27,385 nt of DNA from a virus: positions 1 to 27,385 of IMG/VR virus record IMGVR_UViG_3300009438_000019. One strand, written 5' to 3'. The position numbers were made by a program, and so were the translations under genes. The notes beneath the pieces are model-generated. The model had not been told where the DNA came from and did not search any database. It saw nothing but the letters and a program-made list of their open reading frames with translations. Numbering within the stretch: the first letter of the stretch is position 1; each line of letters begins with the position of its first letter. Positions 1-7,066 of the stretch are shown here, piece after piece.

Positions 1-3000
1 CTCAACATCAAAAAATCTAAGGCCTGTGAAACTCTCAACATCCGCAACATTCAATTTTATCTTTGAGCAAACTCCACCGGTGCTAGGTACACTAGATATA
101 AGGCTACCATTGCTCTCATAGTTGTCAGATGGTATAGGTTTTATTCTATAATCCATCTGAAATCTATTAACATTCGCCCATGTTGTTTCACGTGAAGTAC
201 CATCACTAGCTATACGTCCTGCTAATAATGCATTTCTATCAGTATAAGATATTCCTTGAAAATACCATTCAGATCCGAGGAAATCAATAGCTTTTAACGG
301 TTGGGGGTCATTTGGATCACCATAATCAAACCCTTGCAACACTTCATCAGTTGCACCACCTGCTATTGGTTTTTTATCAGTGAATCCAATTTCAAAATTG
401 CAACCACCTGTACTGTATTCTGGACTATGTCTTTGTGTGGGGTTTAAGAATCTTACTTCATTGTTTCTTCCACTAATTGGTGTAGCAGCTGCACCAATAT
501 GCCGCTTCCTACCAATAATTGCTGGGTGTTGATATACATAGCTGTATTCTCTAAGACCGTTTTCTTCAGATCCATCAAAATATTCACTATCAATAAACCT
601 TGAGTCAGCAATAACAGGAAATGCAATTGCATCGACCGATTGAGCGTAGGTTGTTACGGCTTGACGCCTGTAGTCTATTTCATTTCCAACTGCAATAAGA
701 CTATTTGTACCAGGTGCAGCCCCAGTCATGCCTATCATTCCAATATTTACTTCATACTCTCTGAAAGTATTTTTAGTTTTTAATCTAACGATTGGTGTTT
801 TAAAGTCTTCAATTGATGGAAGCTGATCACCTAGAACATCACTTAGCGCATATCCAAATTTTGCCACGCCTGCTTCAGATGCTGCGCTAACCGCAGTTTT
901 AAATTCTTGATATGTTTCTTTAAATGCAATCCATCGACTTAATACTGATCTATGTATAATGTGAGCATCATCGTCTTCTAATCCAAAGTAATTATCCCGA
1001 TCCTGCTCGACGCTTAGATCCCAAACCTCTGCGCCGTTGATATATTCGACGTTTGGATTATATCTAGCTGACAAACGATCTGGATCACCACCACTATCTA
1101 CCGCAAGCTCGGCGATCTTAGCCTGCACGTCCATTTTTGACAATGCTAGATATCTTATGTCGTCGTGAATTTCAATATGAAAATCTATACGCGGTGATTC
1201 CGTTAACTCTGAGTCCTCAACGGTCTCACCAACAGTGTTTGCAATTAAGCCATTATCGTATGTAAAGGCAAAACCTGGACACGCTTCACACTCAATAAAA
1301 TCAAGCTGAGAAAAATCGCTTACTGAAGTGTTTAACTGTGATGGATATACTAATTTACGATTCTCTTTTTTTATACCAAGTGAATTTTCAATATTCTTTT
1401 TAGGCTTTAAACCTATTAATGGAATTATATCATTACCTTTAACTGGCTTTTCTTCAGCTGTATAACTATATTGTCTTTTAGTACCTTCATCTCCGCCATC
1501 AATATAAACAGATGAACCATATTTAAAAACAAACTGAGGTGCTAACGATGTAGATTTATTAGCAAGGTCAATACGGTAAACCATTTTAAAGAATGGATCT
1601 TCTAAACACGGCTGATCTAATGTATTTTCAATTAGTAACGTATGCATTAGAACCCATCTTGCTTCATTATTATCAACTGGGACATATGCATAAAACTTTG
1701 CGCCCACAGCACCATACCATGAAAATTCTACTTTCCACATGGTAACCTTTTCTACGTCTAGAATATAACCAATATCCGTAGGTTTAAGATTCTGCAATGT
1801 GTCATTATTAAATAAAGATTGTGGTATAACGGTTTCGTAGATATCAGGCAAACTTTCTCCTGTAAATGGATCTAAGGACACACCACCATCTTGACCAATT
1901 GCTGGAATTAACGTTTGCTTACCAAGAATACCATTTAATTCTAAAGATTTATCTGATAATGGAATTGTAGATCTACGTACAATTTGAAAAGAGGCTCCTC
2001 GTATTCTGAACAAGTAACTATCTGTTTTATTCTGAATACCCCATTCAATTTTTCCTGTAGTGTCTTCTTTATCGATCACTGCGCGAGCACCGAAAGTAAA
2101 ACCAGATACACGGCCAGGCTGATAACGAAATGCTTCTTTTGACTGTAAAATAATCGAATCTTGCGTACTTTGTCCAAAATCATAACCTGGTGCACTTACT
2201 TTTATCCAACCCTGCTGATTTAACTGTTTTAGGCTAAACAAACCAATCGGAGATGCTAAGCTCTTGCTTCCTGATGCATTATTATAAAATGAAACTGTTT
2301 CACTTGTACCATTATCTTTCCAGCCAGTAGCGTTCATCACGTCGTAATCAGCCGCCTCAATCGCACCACTTGTTAATACACTAAACAGCGTAGAAGAAGA
2401 AATCTTAAATTTATTTAATTTAATTTTTACCCAAGTATCTGTCCATATGTCAATTAATCTAAAAGCTTCACTTTGAAAGGCTGCAGCGGCTTCTGGTGTT
2501 TCATACTCTGGATAATGTAATGTGTATATTTCAGTTGTTTCTGACGCATCGTATGTATTAAATGAATTTTTCTTTAATGTAACTTTTGATGGATCTAAAA
2601 ATCTATTTTTTATATCGGCACCATAAATGCCTGGGTCTTTTTCATACGCTAAATATAGAAAGTTGCCTAACCGTACAAAGTTTAGGAATAAACTATATTG
2701 TGCATTCTGACCTCGGTTAGTTAAAGGTGTCCAAGGGAAAGAATACGGAACTGGAAACGCAGTAATTTCTAAAGCTTGCTCAGTTGTATTTTCTGTTACG
2801 CGAGTATTATAACGATTAATACCACTTTCTGTAGCTCTATTTTCCCATGGTATATATCGTGAATACCCACTGCTGACATTTTTAAATATTTCCCAATTAT
2901 CACTTTCAAATCCCAAAGTTGACACGTCAGAGAATAAACTCAATTGAGTTTCGGCTCTTGGCACACCTAAAAGAGAAGCACTCACAGAAGAACTCTCTGG

Positions 3001-3573
3001 AAATTGTTCTTCAACCTTAACTGTAGATCCCGCAGCTAATACAACTCCTGTTGCATTTGCTGATGTAATAGTATCAAGGAATGTTATATTTGTATCAGTA
3101 AATAAATCATTACCTGCAGCATCTGTTAATTTGGCAAGGGTGATTGAATCAAAAAGACTACTTTCTACTTTAACCTCTTGAGGTGTATTTCTATCAAAAC
3201 CAATTAAAGATTTATTACCAACTGTATTAATGAATCTTTCAAAGACAAATTCAATCTTCGTACCAGATGCTATATCTTTTAATAATGGTTTACTTAGATA
3301 AAGCTTAACTTTTCCATTTACAATTGTAATTGCAGTAGCAGTAATAAAATTATTTAAATTTATATCTTCTGAATTATAATCGCGCTTTACTTGCGTTCCA
3401 ATTTCAAAAACACTATTGTCTACACCATATACGTAATCACCTTCTTTTAATATTGACAATAGATTTAAATCTTCACCTGTGATTAAATCTTCTTGAAATT
3501 TATTTAATGTTAATGTACTATCGCCGGCACTATGTGTGCCGACGAGTGTGGTATTAAAATGATATTGTGCCAT
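1..3573 (-). CDS. Large tail fibre/structural protein, paralogue of the next gene, 3' end missing
   Basis: An open frame of 1191 codons runs without a stop from an ATG at 3573 to the left edge, so the C-terminus is missing. Residues about 190-225 carry SLLGVPRAETQLSLFSDVST, residues 482-495 carry FRYQPGRVSGFTFG, residues 616-640 carry EFSWYGAVGA followed by YVPVDNNEARWV, and residues about 681-696 carry KYGSSVYIDGGD. All four blocks recur in the same order in the gene at 3638-7066, so the two are paralogues. The N-terminal 185 residues are unrelated between the two, which suggests different attachment modules. I know these blocks from large structural proteins of marine T4-like phages, usually called tail fibre or structural protein. 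Role in host contact is inferred. It is the most downstream gene visible, preceded by a GATAAATA promoter candidate; no Shine-Dalgarno is seen. Confidence 0.8.
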   Translation of the reverse strand, partial: MAQYHFNTTLVGTHSAGDSTLTLNKFQEDLITGEDLNLLSILKEGDYVYGVDNSVFEIGTQVKRDYNSEDINLNNFITATAITIVNGKVKLYLSKPLLKDIASGTKIEFVFERFINTVGNKSLIGFDRNTPQEVKVESSLFDSITLAKLTDAAGNDLFTDTNITFLDTITSANATGVVLAAGSTVKVEEQFPESSSVSASLLGVPRAETQLSLFSDVSTLGFESDNWEIFKNVSSGYSRYIPWENRATESGINRYNTRVTENTTEQALEITAFPVPYSFPWTPLTNRGQNAQYSLFLNFVRLGNFLYLAYEKDPGIYGADIKNRFLDPSKVTLKKNSFNTYDASETTEIYTLHYPEYETPEAAAAFQSEAFRLIDIWTDTWVKIKLNKFKISSSTLFSVLTSGAIEAADYDVMNATGWKDNGTSETVSFYNNASGSKSLASPIGLFSLKQLNQQGWIKVSAPGYDFGQSTQDSIILQSKEAFRYQPGRVSGFTFGARAVIDKEDTTGKIEWGIQNKTDSYLFRIRGASFQIVRRSTIPLSDKSLELNGILGKQTLIPAIGQDGGVSLDPFTGESLPDIYETVIPQSLFNNDTLQNLKPTDIGYILDVEKVTMWKVEFSWYGAVGAKFYAYVPVDNNEARWVLMHTLLIENTLDQPCLEDPFFKMVYRIDLANKSTSLAPQFVFKYGSSVYIDGGDEGTKRQYSYTAEEKPVKGNDIIPLIGLKPKKNIENSLGIKKENRKLVYPSQLNTSVSDFSQLDFIECEACPGFAFTYDNGLIANTVGETVEDSELTESPRIDFHIEIHDDIRYLALSKMDVQAKIAELAVDSGGDPDRLSARYNPNVEYINGAEVWDLSVEQDRDNYFGLEDDDAHIIHRSVLSRWIAFKETYQEFKTAVSAASEAGVAKFGYALSDVLGDQLPSIEDFKTPIVRLKTKNTFREYEVNIGMIGMTGAAPGTNSLIAVGNEIDYRRQAVTTYAQSVDAIAFPVIADSRFIDSEYFDGSEENGLREYSYVYQHPAIIGRKRHIGAAATPISGRNNEVRFLNPTQRHSPEYSTGGCNFEIGFTDKKPIAGGATDEVLQGFDYGDPNDPQPLKAIDFLGSEWYFQGISYTDRNALLAGRIASDGTSRETTWANVNRFQMDYRIKPIPSDNYESNGSLISSVPSTGGVCSKIKLNVADVESFTGLRFFDVE
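1652..1735. repeat. Diverged direct repeat between the two fibre genes, copy 1
   Basis: This stretch encodes EFSWYGAVGA and the NNEARWV block of the left-edge fibre. It matches 5064-5147 in the next gene at roughly 80% by eye, including uninterrupted runs such as CCCACAGCACCATACCATGA. The identity is higher here than across the rest of the two genes. Confidence 0.7.
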
Positions 3574-3580
3574 AATGTAC

Positions 3581-3588
3581 TATTTATC
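3581..3588 (-). promoter_or_regulatory. Possible T4-type late promoter, GATAAATA
   Basis: On the minus strand GATAAATA ends seven bases before the ATG of the left-edge fibre gene. It differs from the T4 late octamer TATAAATA only in the first base, a position reported as variable in T4-like cyanophages (NATAAATA). The octamer also contains the TAA that ends the degenerate copy of the upstream fibre's tail, so the match could partly come from the stop codon context. Confidence 0.4.
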
Positions 3589-3637
3589 GTTCTTTCCATG
3601 TGGTACCTGCGTTAACTTTTTATTTAACACTGACAGC
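3584..3637 (-). pseudogene. Degenerate tandem copy of the last 18 codons of the upstream fibre gene
   Basis: Directly after the stop codon of the 1142-residue fibre, in the same frame, the minus strand reads AVSVK, stop, KVNAGTTWKER, stop. The last 18 codons of the fibre (3638-3691) read DVSAAAQVNASITWEEQ, stop. Both units are exactly 54 bases and end in TAA, and by hand count 38 of 54 bases match. Most differences are synonymous or conservative except for the internal stop at 3620-3622. This indicates a tandem duplication of the gene's 3' end, or the stub of a former fibre paralogue left behind when another was recombined in. It fills nearly the whole 64-base gap before the next gene. Confidence 0.7.
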
Positions 3638-6600
3638 TTATTGCTCTTCCCAAGTGATGCTTGCATTAACTTGTGCTGCAGCACTAACATCCGATGATCG
3701 AATTGAGAGATATAAATTGTCTGGCAAATCAGTTAGTGGGAATGAGATATAATCTTTATTATAGTCAAAATATGAACTTAGATCAAAATATTCACTACCA
3801 TTTTGTAAGAAGAACGTAGCAATCTGTGTTCCAGTGCCAGCGATAGGTCTTCCCTTAGTATTTACAATTTCAATCGAACTCAATCTTTCAATTTCACTAT
3901 TTGGAATATTCACCGGCGCTGTTGCAACGCTACCATCTTCATTATATTGCTTTGCATATAAGAAAGTTCTATTAGTCGTATCAAATGTCAATTCTTCTGT
4001 ATATGTATCTAAAGAACGGAATTCATATTCAACAAGGCCACTTCCAGAGTTAATTGGATCAACTCTTTCAACAAAGCCAAATAATGATCTTTGAGCACCA
4101 GGATTATTTACATCTAATACTCTAAACCATCCATAAACTTTATCACCGATAGCGAAATCAGTACTAAAGGTTTGATCAAGGTTTACAAATGGCTCGGTCC
4201 CCGCAGTTGTATAAGATAATCGTGTCGGTAAACCTGCAGGTGCCAATGGAATAGCAGGCCCACTTTTAATAACGAGCTCTTCACCTGTCGCTGGATAATT
4301 ACTACCATCAATGAAGATATCATCAGTTTGATAAATCGCATTCTTGACCAGTTCAAGTTTAACATTATCTGATTGCGCGCCTGTGGATGTCATACCAACA
4401 GAAAGCTTTGTAGGATACACTTGAACACGATTTCTTACTTTGTATCCTTGTGAACTCTCAATTTCAGTCTTTGAAGTCAAACCATAAATTACTGGAGATG
4501 ACTTTGATATGATTTTAATATCAGCTACAGCTAAACTGCCATGATCATTAAAGTCTGTATTTAAATACAGCGTTGATGTATTACCAGCAATATCTCTTTC
4601 AATAAATTCAACTCTTAAATTTACATCTGCAGGATTACTTGTAACTACCTTTGCACCCATCAAGATATCATCTGGTATTTCAACACTAGTCGTCCCCGAA
4701 AGTTCAATTGTATTAGCTGTAAGAGTGTTTTCAATAGTTAATGTATTTAATATACCAGTCTCCGTGGAGCCGGTGTCAGCATACGATGATGACGACATTT
4801 CCGTGCTGTCTTCTGGTGCGTAATTAAACAGTCTTACTGTACCACGGTCACCTCCATCAATATAATAAGATGAACCGTACTTAATCACGAACTCAGAGTG
4901 TGACTTACCCCCTGCGTAACTTATTCTATCTCCTAAAGGTCTACTGGTTCCACCAAGTGTTTTTTCAGTGCCTCCACCATAAACAGTGTATGTGATTGGA
5001 AGTGTAGCATTACCAAGAGACGCAACCTTTAATTGATTTGATGCGCGAATATGATGGATTCGTACCCATCTTGCTTCATCATTACCAACTGGAACATAAG
5101 CTAAGAACAGAGCACCCACAGCACCATACCATGAGAATTCAATCTTATTCATTATGACCTTTGAGAAATCGATATCCCATGCAGACGCGTCTAATTTTTT
5201 ACCGGCAACTCCCTGACCAGGATATTGAATAGTGCTTTCGCCATCTCCGCTTGGTAGTCTTACAACATCAGAATAAACATAAGATTTATTTGTAGAGCCG
5301 TCTAAGAAGTCAAAGTTGAATCTTGAGCGAGGAATTCTATATTCGTAAACACCATAATATTTTGGATCAACATTATGACGAATCCAATGGCGCCACGATC
5401 TTGTTTGTTGATTTGCATTAAACTCTGTGGTTCGCGTCACTGTATCACCTATCCTTGCAAGGCTGATACATAGCTCACCATTATTGACGGCATCGATATC
5501 AGCAACAAAGCCGTTGAATTCATTTACGTCTGAACTACCAAATACTGAAGTATCAATTGCGCCTACATGATCGGCGGCATCGCCGTAAGCGACGAGATTA
5601 ATATCATGCTCACGTCTATATGGAAACATAATATCTGCATCCGCTTCGTCAGCATATTCTGGGAATATAAATGGTACAGGCGTAATGATAAACTGTTTCT
5701 CTGGATCGATAGTTACGCCACTTTCCAGTACTATGTCAACATCACCACCGGTGCCAATTGCTTTAACAACTTTAATAGTATTACCGACAACTTCAGTGAT
5801 TCGAAGTAATGAAGTATGTGCTTCATCCGGTGCCTCTGGTGCTGGATCGGCCTCAAATAATGCATTGCCAAGGTCTGTTGTATTGTATCTTACAATCTGA
5901 TCTTTTTCAAGACCGTCAACGTTGTTTAATGTAATTGTAAGAACACCATTTGATAAAGCCGGAGTGATTTGAATCTTGTGCTTAGTTTCCTTCTTTAACA
6001 AAGATGGATCATACATTGCTGCATGTGTCATTAGAAGACCATCTCTTACAATCGCTAAATCACCAGCATAGTGCGCAATAAGCGTTCGTGGGGCGGCGGT
6101 TAACTCGCTTTCTAACAAATCAAACGCGGCGTCCTGTGATATAAACACATCAGTAGTGTTTGCCCCGACAACTAGAGAGGTTACAATTGTGTTTGGCGCA
6201 ATGAGATAGTTACTATTATCATCGGCTGCAGTAATATCACTTAATGACATACCAATTTGAGGTGCACCAGCGCCATTGATTGCGTTGATTGTAATTTTAT
6301 TACCTTCAACGGTGTTCAAACTTAATTCAAAGGAAGCGCCGTCTGATTTACCCACAACACCGTAATCTTCTTTTTGATGAGTAGTCTCTGTACCATATGT
6401 GGTACCTCTATATTTAATTAGAGCATGTGTTCTTCTTACAACACAGAATTGATCTCCTTTACCAGTATCTCTAGTTTCCCAATAGTAACCATCAAACTTA
6501 TCGTAAATACCATATTTTCTAATTGCTGCATTACGATTATCCACCACTGGTGCACCAGGTGTTTTTGAAGTTTTAACACCGAATGTTGCAGCAGAAACAC

Positions 6601-7066
6601 GACCAGGTTGATATCTAAAGAATCTTTTAGATGTTAAGACAGCTGTTTTATTTGGAGCTGCTTCTAATAACGCACCAGCTTCTTCTGGCACGTGAGACAG
6701 ACCATATCCAAAGTTTTTAGCGAGGTCACCGGCGCCACCAGCACCAAAGCCGTTTAACTCATATGGGCTACTTGCAACATCTAAGTCTGTTTTTTCAGCT
6801 GGTAAAAATGTCCATTCACTAGGATCAACATCATATGTGTTAACGTCAGCAAAAATCCCCAAGGCAACTTCAGAGCGTGGAATACCAAGAAGAGATAATG
6901 CAACCTCAGATTGAATCTTGTTTTGTTCTTCAACAGGTATTGCTGCCTGGTCAGACGCTAAGACGACGGGCAACGACTTGGCTGCTGAAGCTTGACCTCT
7001 AGGTATCGGAGCGGTACGCCCGATTGTTACGATATTATTCGCTCTATTAATTGTTTTTGTTGCCAT
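3638..7066 (-). CDS. Large tail fibre/structural protein (1142 aa)
   Basis: The N-terminus contains SLPVVLASDQAAIPV (residues 31-45), a short stretch seen near the start of many phage tail proteins. SLLGIPRSEVALGIFADVNT (about 58-77), FRYQPGRVSAATFG (about 150-163), EFSWYGAVGA (about 640-650) and KYGSSYYIDGGD (about 729-740) are shared with the left-edge gene. Roughly 350 more residues separate the second and third blocks here than in the paralogue, so a large domain has been gained or lost. The ATG overlaps the preceding stop by one base (TAATG), which implies translational coupling with the beta-helix gene. A weak AAGGA lies about 12 bases upstream. Function as a fibre or peripheral baseplate protein is inferred from family and position; an enzymatic domain is not evident. 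Confidence 0.8.
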   Translation of the reverse strand: MATKTINRANNIVTIGRTAPIPRGQASAAKSLPVVLASDQAAIPVEEQNKIQSEVALSLLGIPRSEVALGIFADVNTYDVDPSEWTFLPAEKTDLDVASSPYELNGFGAGGAGDLAKNFGYGLSHVPEEAGALLEAAPNKTAVLTSKRFFRYQPGRVSAATFGVKTSKTPGAPVVDNRNAAIRKYGIYDKFDGYYWETRDTGKGDQFCVVRRTHALIKYRGTTYGTETTHQKEDYGVVGKSDGASFELSLNTVEGNKITINAINGAGAPQIGMSLSDITAADDNSNYLIAPNTIVTSLVVGANTTDVFISQDAAFDLLESELTAAPRTLIAHYAGDLAIVRDGLLMTHAAMYDPSLLKKETKHKIQITPALSNGVLTITLNNVDGLEKDQIVRYNTTDLGNALFEADPAPEAPDEAHTSLLRITEVVGNTIKVVKAIGTGGDVDIVLESGVTIDPEKQFIITPVPFIFPEYADEADADIMFPYRREHDINLVAYGDAADHVGAIDTSVFGSSDVNEFNGFVADIDAVNNGELCISLARIGDTVTRTTEFNANQQTRSWRHWIRHNVDPKYYGVYEYRIPRSRFNFDFLDGSTNKSYVYSDVVRLPSGDGESTIQYPGQGVAGKKLDASAWDIDFSKVIMNKIEFSWYGAVGALFLAYVPVGNDEARWVRIHHIRASNQLKVASLGNATLPITYTVYGGGTEKTLGGTSRPLGDRISYAGGKSHSEFVIKYGSSYYIDGGDRGTVRLFNYAPEDSTEMSSSSYADTGSTETGILNTLTIENTLTANTIELSGTTSVEIPDDILMGAKVVTSNPADVNLRVEFIERDIAGNTSTLYLNTDFNDHGSLAVADIKIISKSSPVIYGLTSKTEIESSQGYKVRNRVQVYPTKLSVGMTSTGAQSDNVKLELVKNAIYQTDDIFIDGSNYPATGEELVIKSGPAIPLAPAGLPTRLSYTTAGTEPFVNLDQTFSTDFAIGDKVYGWFRVLDVNNPGAQRSLFGFVERVDPINSGSGLVEYEFRSLDTYTEELTFDTTNRTFLYAKQYNEDGSVATAPVNIPNSEIERLSSIEIVNTKGRPIAGTGTQIATFFLQNGSEYFDLSSYFDYNKDYISFPLTDLPDNLYLSIRSSDVSAAAQVNASITWEEQ
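5064..5147. repeat. Diverged direct repeat between the two fibre genes, copy 2
   Basis: Second copy of the EFSWYGAVGA ... NDEARWV coding block, in the 1142-residue fibre, in the same orientation as copy 1 at 1652-1735. Together they show common ancestry of the two genes and could support recombination between them. Confidence 0.7.

Follow-up and report, generated by a model that had tools for sequence, protein, structure and literature searches.

A tandem copy of a virion gene's tail, probably of local origin, in a marine T4-like phage lineage

Two gene tails at one junction

The window, that is, the whole stretch of DNA analysed here, is a virus record of 27,385 bases whose minus strand bears a T4-like baseplate cluster: gp25, a gp5-like OB, gp6, a baseplate wedge protein, gp8 and several large structural proteins. 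We are concerned with the junction between two large adjoining genes on that strand, whose features are collected in Table 1.

Table 1. Features of the junction, and start codons of the window that follow a promoter-like box
Feature	Position	Strand	Description
Upstream gene	3638..7066	minus	1142 aa; T4-like virion structural protein (PHROG 1645); ends QVNASITWEEQ-stop
First unit	3638..3691	minus	last 17 sense codons and stop of the upstream gene; functional copy, ending TWEEQ-stop
Second unit (stub)	3584..3637	minus	54 nt, AVSVK-stop-KVNAGTTWKER-stop; 38/54 identical to first unit; non-coding
Nonsense codon TAA	3620..3622	minus	codon 6 of the stub, seen in the sequence
Box GATAAATA	3581..3588	minus	late-promoter-like (NATAAATA type); overlaps the stub's stop, 7 nt before the next ATG; putative function
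Intergenic gap, entire	3574..3637	minus	64 nt
Downstream gene	1..3573	minus	related to PHROG 1645; starts at 3573, 64 nt past the stop of the upstream gene; cut by the window end (1562 aa in relative L002)
Starts with a TATAAATA box	27120, 25487, 24165, 23152, 18806, 10954, 3573		at most one mismatch

The nearest isolated relatives of the 1142-residue protein are found in S-TIM5-type cyanophages, where about 44% of residues are identical along 57% of its length. An earlier note on this DNA had called its gene a fibre gene. A virion structural protein it is, PHROG 1645 ("virion structural protein") being the only family found and no Pfam family matching, but "fibre" was the reader's own label, and no similarity to fibre or adhesin families was found. 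The comparison with PDB sequences gave no convincing match, one to DNA polymerase alpha (E 0.005) being taken as chance, and the AlphaFold model, with a mean pLDDT of 46, is too weak for a fold search. Throughout the family the gene is conserved at its N-terminus, in its core and at its C-terminus, and is thus unlike a swapped receptor-binding tip. The core EFSWYGAVGA...KYGSS.YIDGGD.GT and the PHROG 1645 assignment are common to the proteins of 1-3573 and 3638-7066: the two adjoining large virion proteins look like ancient paralogues.

The last 18 codons of the upstream gene, stop included, are followed head to tail by a second unit of the same length. The earlier note had proposed a comparison with shuffled sequences, and this bears out the repeat: with the register fixed, 20,000 dinucleotide-preserving shuffles average 16.2 matches, reach 30/54 at best and never attain 38. 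The runner-up among the window's 54-mers, both strands included, also reaches 30/54 against the gene's tail, and in a local-alignment version of the test none of 5,000 shuffles is as good as the observed unit match. The first 33 bases, which leave out the family-conserved TWEEQ-stop codons, match at 22 positions, with a binomial P of 1.5e-5 if chance identity is taken to be 30%. Measured in blocks of nine bases, the match at period 54 is 4-7/9 inside the unit, 0-2/9 in the six preceding blocks and 3/9 just after: the similarity is sharply bounded, and exactly one unit long. Inspection by eye of the flanks revealed no microhomology suggestive of slippage.

It could be objected that the tails of this family are conserved at the DNA level and often contain the next gene's ribosome-binding site. 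The stub would then be a conserved regulatory signal resembling a coding tail, if not a plain chance likeness. We give this almost no credence: we judge it refuted by the shuffle test, in which none of the 20,000 trials is as good; the variable, non-regulatory half of the unit is similar as well (the 22/33 above); and the repeat is absent from all other relatives.

A second contig, IMGVR_UViG_3300009440_000019, has an identical stub. It is 99.7% identical to the window over 13,066 bases, and none of the 35 differences lies in the gap. Since the stub is unchanged in this sister contig, an assembly error is unlikely, and the repeat is a real, inherited feature, specific to this lineage. The coordinates, frame, lengths, internal stop and count of 38 matches in 54 given in the earlier note are all exact, and its description of a tandem duplication of the gene's tail, with a stub that is not expressed, stands.

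Relatives and the origin of the second unit

Two protein searches yielded loci with 79 distinct gene ends, 78 of them from outside the lineage studied here. All 79 terminate in TW-E-E-Q-stop, the residues at codons 13-17 of the unit being invariant in the 78 others. In 58 of the 79 the next gene follows after 3 nucleotides, and in the other measurable ones after 0-18 nucleotides, against 64 nucleotides here. This comparison with the gaps of relatives had also been suggested in the earlier note, and it makes the duplication specific to this lineage: the gaps of relatives are of other lengths, and none of them holds a second tail.

Wider searches lead to the same place. The tail pattern VNA(S/G)(I/T)TW(E/K)E and the looser VNA..TW(E/K)E, sought in 2.9 million viral contigs (viral_contigs), occur in the sister contig only, with two matches per pattern that correspond to its two copies; a pattern of two tails 28-58 nucleotides apart again matches that contig only. 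Among 77 distinct intergenic gaps of 25-400 nucleotides from all fetched loci, a copy of the preceding gene's tail is present here only, and a broader profile search gained further relatives with a second tail in none. A DNA search with the 501-bp region among isolated phages gave no match, and the downstream protein, used as a query, matched the sister contig alone. Beyond that contig, the nearest relative is only about 56% identical in protein, and a genome near to this lineage that lacks the stub is not known.

In most relatives (L009-L161, and S-TIM5 at L162:12150-12172), exactly 3 nucleotides separate the invariant end TGG-GAR-GAR-CAR-stop from the next ATG. Where the two Glu codons are GAG-GAG, this end can also be read as the next gene's Shine-Dalgarno site, and the end of the protein and the ribosome-binding site appear to overlap. 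In L007, a 15-nucleotide gap (L007:10153-10167) starts with TGACATGGAAAC, identical at 10 of 12 positions to that gene's own TGACATGGGAAG tail: this is possibly a second, shorter tail remnant, too short to judge.

The large collection of gene ends allows us to ask which of them the stub resembles most. It matches its neighbour at 38/54 positions, and the 78 other distinct tails at no more than 34/54. The variable first half contributes 18/27 against the neighbour and at most 14/27 against other tails; in the conserved half, the stub matches the neighbour at 20/27, and the neighbour matches its relatives at 20.2/27 on average. The margin (38 versus 34 of only 54 bases) is modest, because so few bases can be compared and because closer relatives are absent from the collections. 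The second copy is nevertheless adjacent to the first, limited to one unit length, and nearer to it than to any homologous sequence elsewhere. Relative L003, for its part, is the best or nearly the best match all along the upstream protein, the final 120 residues included, and over the first 400 residues of the downstream protein: no mosaic break, that is, no change of closest relative, was found near the junction, at a resolution limited by identities of about 50%.

These results bear directly on the proposal of the earlier note, namely that the stub is the scar of a fibre replacement and marks a fibre-exchange site. A related allele would have entered by recombination a little ahead of the old 3' end, so that the old tail stayed behind as a stub. 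The stub does lie at the ancestral junction with the downstream gene, with a 10-nucleotide spacing and a box as in relatives, and replacement predicts this equally well. Its last codons also include ACA-TGG and GAA, as in several relatives (L003, L007 and L009), in place of the ACT and GAG of the functional copy; however, these synonymous choices are the two common alternatives of the family and prove nothing. The closest match to the stub anywhere is its neighbour, no gene end of another phage being closer, which is the outcome that the earlier note, in proposing this alignment, had assigned to local duplication; the closest relative does not change across the junction; the gene is conserved in its core and at both ends; and a second tail occurs in no other member of the family. 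We thus regard replacement as unlikely, and these comparisons do not support fibre exchange at this junction. An exchange with an unsampled, very close relative is possible.

Another explanation would make the stub the remnant of a deleted third paralogous gene, once located between the two, of which only the 3' end is left. The upstream and downstream genes are related, both belonging with PHROG 1645, and this implies that a gene duplication took place here in the deep past. However, an extra gene ending in TWEEQ is absent here from every relative examined, the upstream gene's tail is nearer to the stub than that of any relative, and the end of the downstream gene differs strongly (QVSINTAEI). 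Such a remnant seems to us very improbable.

On the present comparisons the event was most probably local, not imported. The last 18 codons of the upstream virion gene would have been duplicated in tandem in a single event, before the two sampled genomes diverged.

The decay of the stub and the box at its end

The 16 differences between the units are spread evenly over codon positions (5, 6 and 5), and the stub changes codons 14 and 16, which are Glu and Gln in 78/78 relatives, to Lys and Arg. Together with the nonsense codon, this points to relaxed coding constraint. Readthrough, or an alternative C-terminus, was rejected on account of the two stops and of the substitutions at codons that are invariant elsewhere. 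RNA folding of the gap is nothing unusual (z -0.38), and the gap contains no recognizable terminator and no sigma-70 promoter beyond chance. Under local duplication, the first unit would keep the protein's C-terminus, and the second, lying beyond the point where translation terminates, would be free to decay.

What the second unit has not lost is its place beside the downstream gene. The distance from the stub's stop to the next ATG is 10 nucleotides, the same as for the real stop in L005 and L006, and 7 nucleotides in L003. At the corresponding real gene end, overlapping the stop or just past it, L003 has the box AATAAATA and L005 has GATAAATA; L006 has no box there. The stop of the functional unit is now followed by GCTGTC, without a box. 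The stub's GATAAATA differs from the TATAAATA of T4 in its first base, and fits NATAAATA, the late promoter motif of cyanophage S-PM2 (PMC2984593). This fit, and the boxes of L003 and L005 at the corresponding place, suggest that GATAAATA is probably the late promoter of the downstream gene, retained by the stub.

The second unit would thus have stayed beside the downstream gene and kept the box, overlapping its old stop just before the next ATG, and the stub would survive as promoter-proximal sequence of that gene. That retention of the box is the reason for the persistence of the stub is a conjecture to which we give slightly less than an even chance. We are more doubtful of a stronger version, in which the 3' end of the gene once both coded for the invariant WEEQ-stop and bore the late-promoter box of the next gene, the duplication split the two jobs, and the copies decayed in complementary ways. 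The outline itself, a local tandem duplication whose first copy still codes and whose second has decayed and persists as promoter-proximal sequence of the downstream gene, is in our view likely. We dropped the idea of the stub as keeper of a Shine-Dalgarno site for the next gene, since motifs of this kind are nearly absent in the clade.

Boxes next to start codons, and comparison with known systems

The box at the stub's end is not isolated. A TATAAATA-like box with at most one mismatch ends 4-9 nucleotides before the ATG at 7 of the 14 gene starts of the window, against 1.1% of 536 other ATGs. In the closest clade (L002, L003, L005-L008 and L059, with 36 starts), ATAAATA ends 4-10 nucleotides before the ATG in 10 cases, where about 0.01 would be expected per distance. 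Shine-Dalgarno-like motifs precede 1 of these 36 starts, whereas the remaining relatives have them at 41% of 268 starts; the boxes found in those relatives lie at least 13 nucleotides upstream. In T4, the late promoter box is at -13 to -6 (PMC1524935). Boxes this close to the start codon, combined with the T4 geometry, predict that late mRNAs are almost leaderless in this clade. This would be compatible with a host in which Shine-Dalgarno sites are not used, as in Bacteroidetes (PMC6847099).

The stub is real, but it is probably a mostly ordinary local duplication in one marine T4-like phage lineage, not a visible trace of fibre swapping, and in this respect no more than a small curiosity. It carries somewhat more weight as an illustration of how genes can come apart in a densely packed phage genome, where the end of one overlaps signals of its successor: the copy that lies next to the successor can shed its coding sense while the signal is kept. 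The case also calls for caution, since stubs need comparison with many relatives before they serve as markers of fibre exchange. The late promoters close to start codons, for their part, clearly predict that late mRNAs of a T4-like phage have nearly no leader.

Three known systems can be set beside this junction. The gp120-gp119 junction of S-TIM5 involves the same gene family, and gp120 has the same end, ...TWEEQ-stop (TGGGAGGAACAGTGA), but there the next gene begins 3 nucleotides past the stop and a second tail is lacking. With T4-type late promoters, the junction shares a NATAAATA/TATAAATA box upstream of a structural gene, of the S-PM2 type (PMC2984593) in the stub and of the T4 type, TATAAATA, at other genes of the window; it differs in that the stub's box ends 7 nucleotides before the ATG, so that a T4-like start would leave a leader of about 2 nucleotides, whereas the boxes found in Melnitz, S-SM2 and S-TIM5 lie 13-29 nucleotides upstream. 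Finally, the repeat resembles short in-gene tandem duplications, by slippage or unequal exchange, that are followed by pseudogenisation: the copies are head to tail, one unit in length, one conserved and one decayed. The difference is that the copied stretch here holds a stop codon and a promoter-like box, so that translation is confined to the upstream copy, while the downstream copy alone borders on the next gene.
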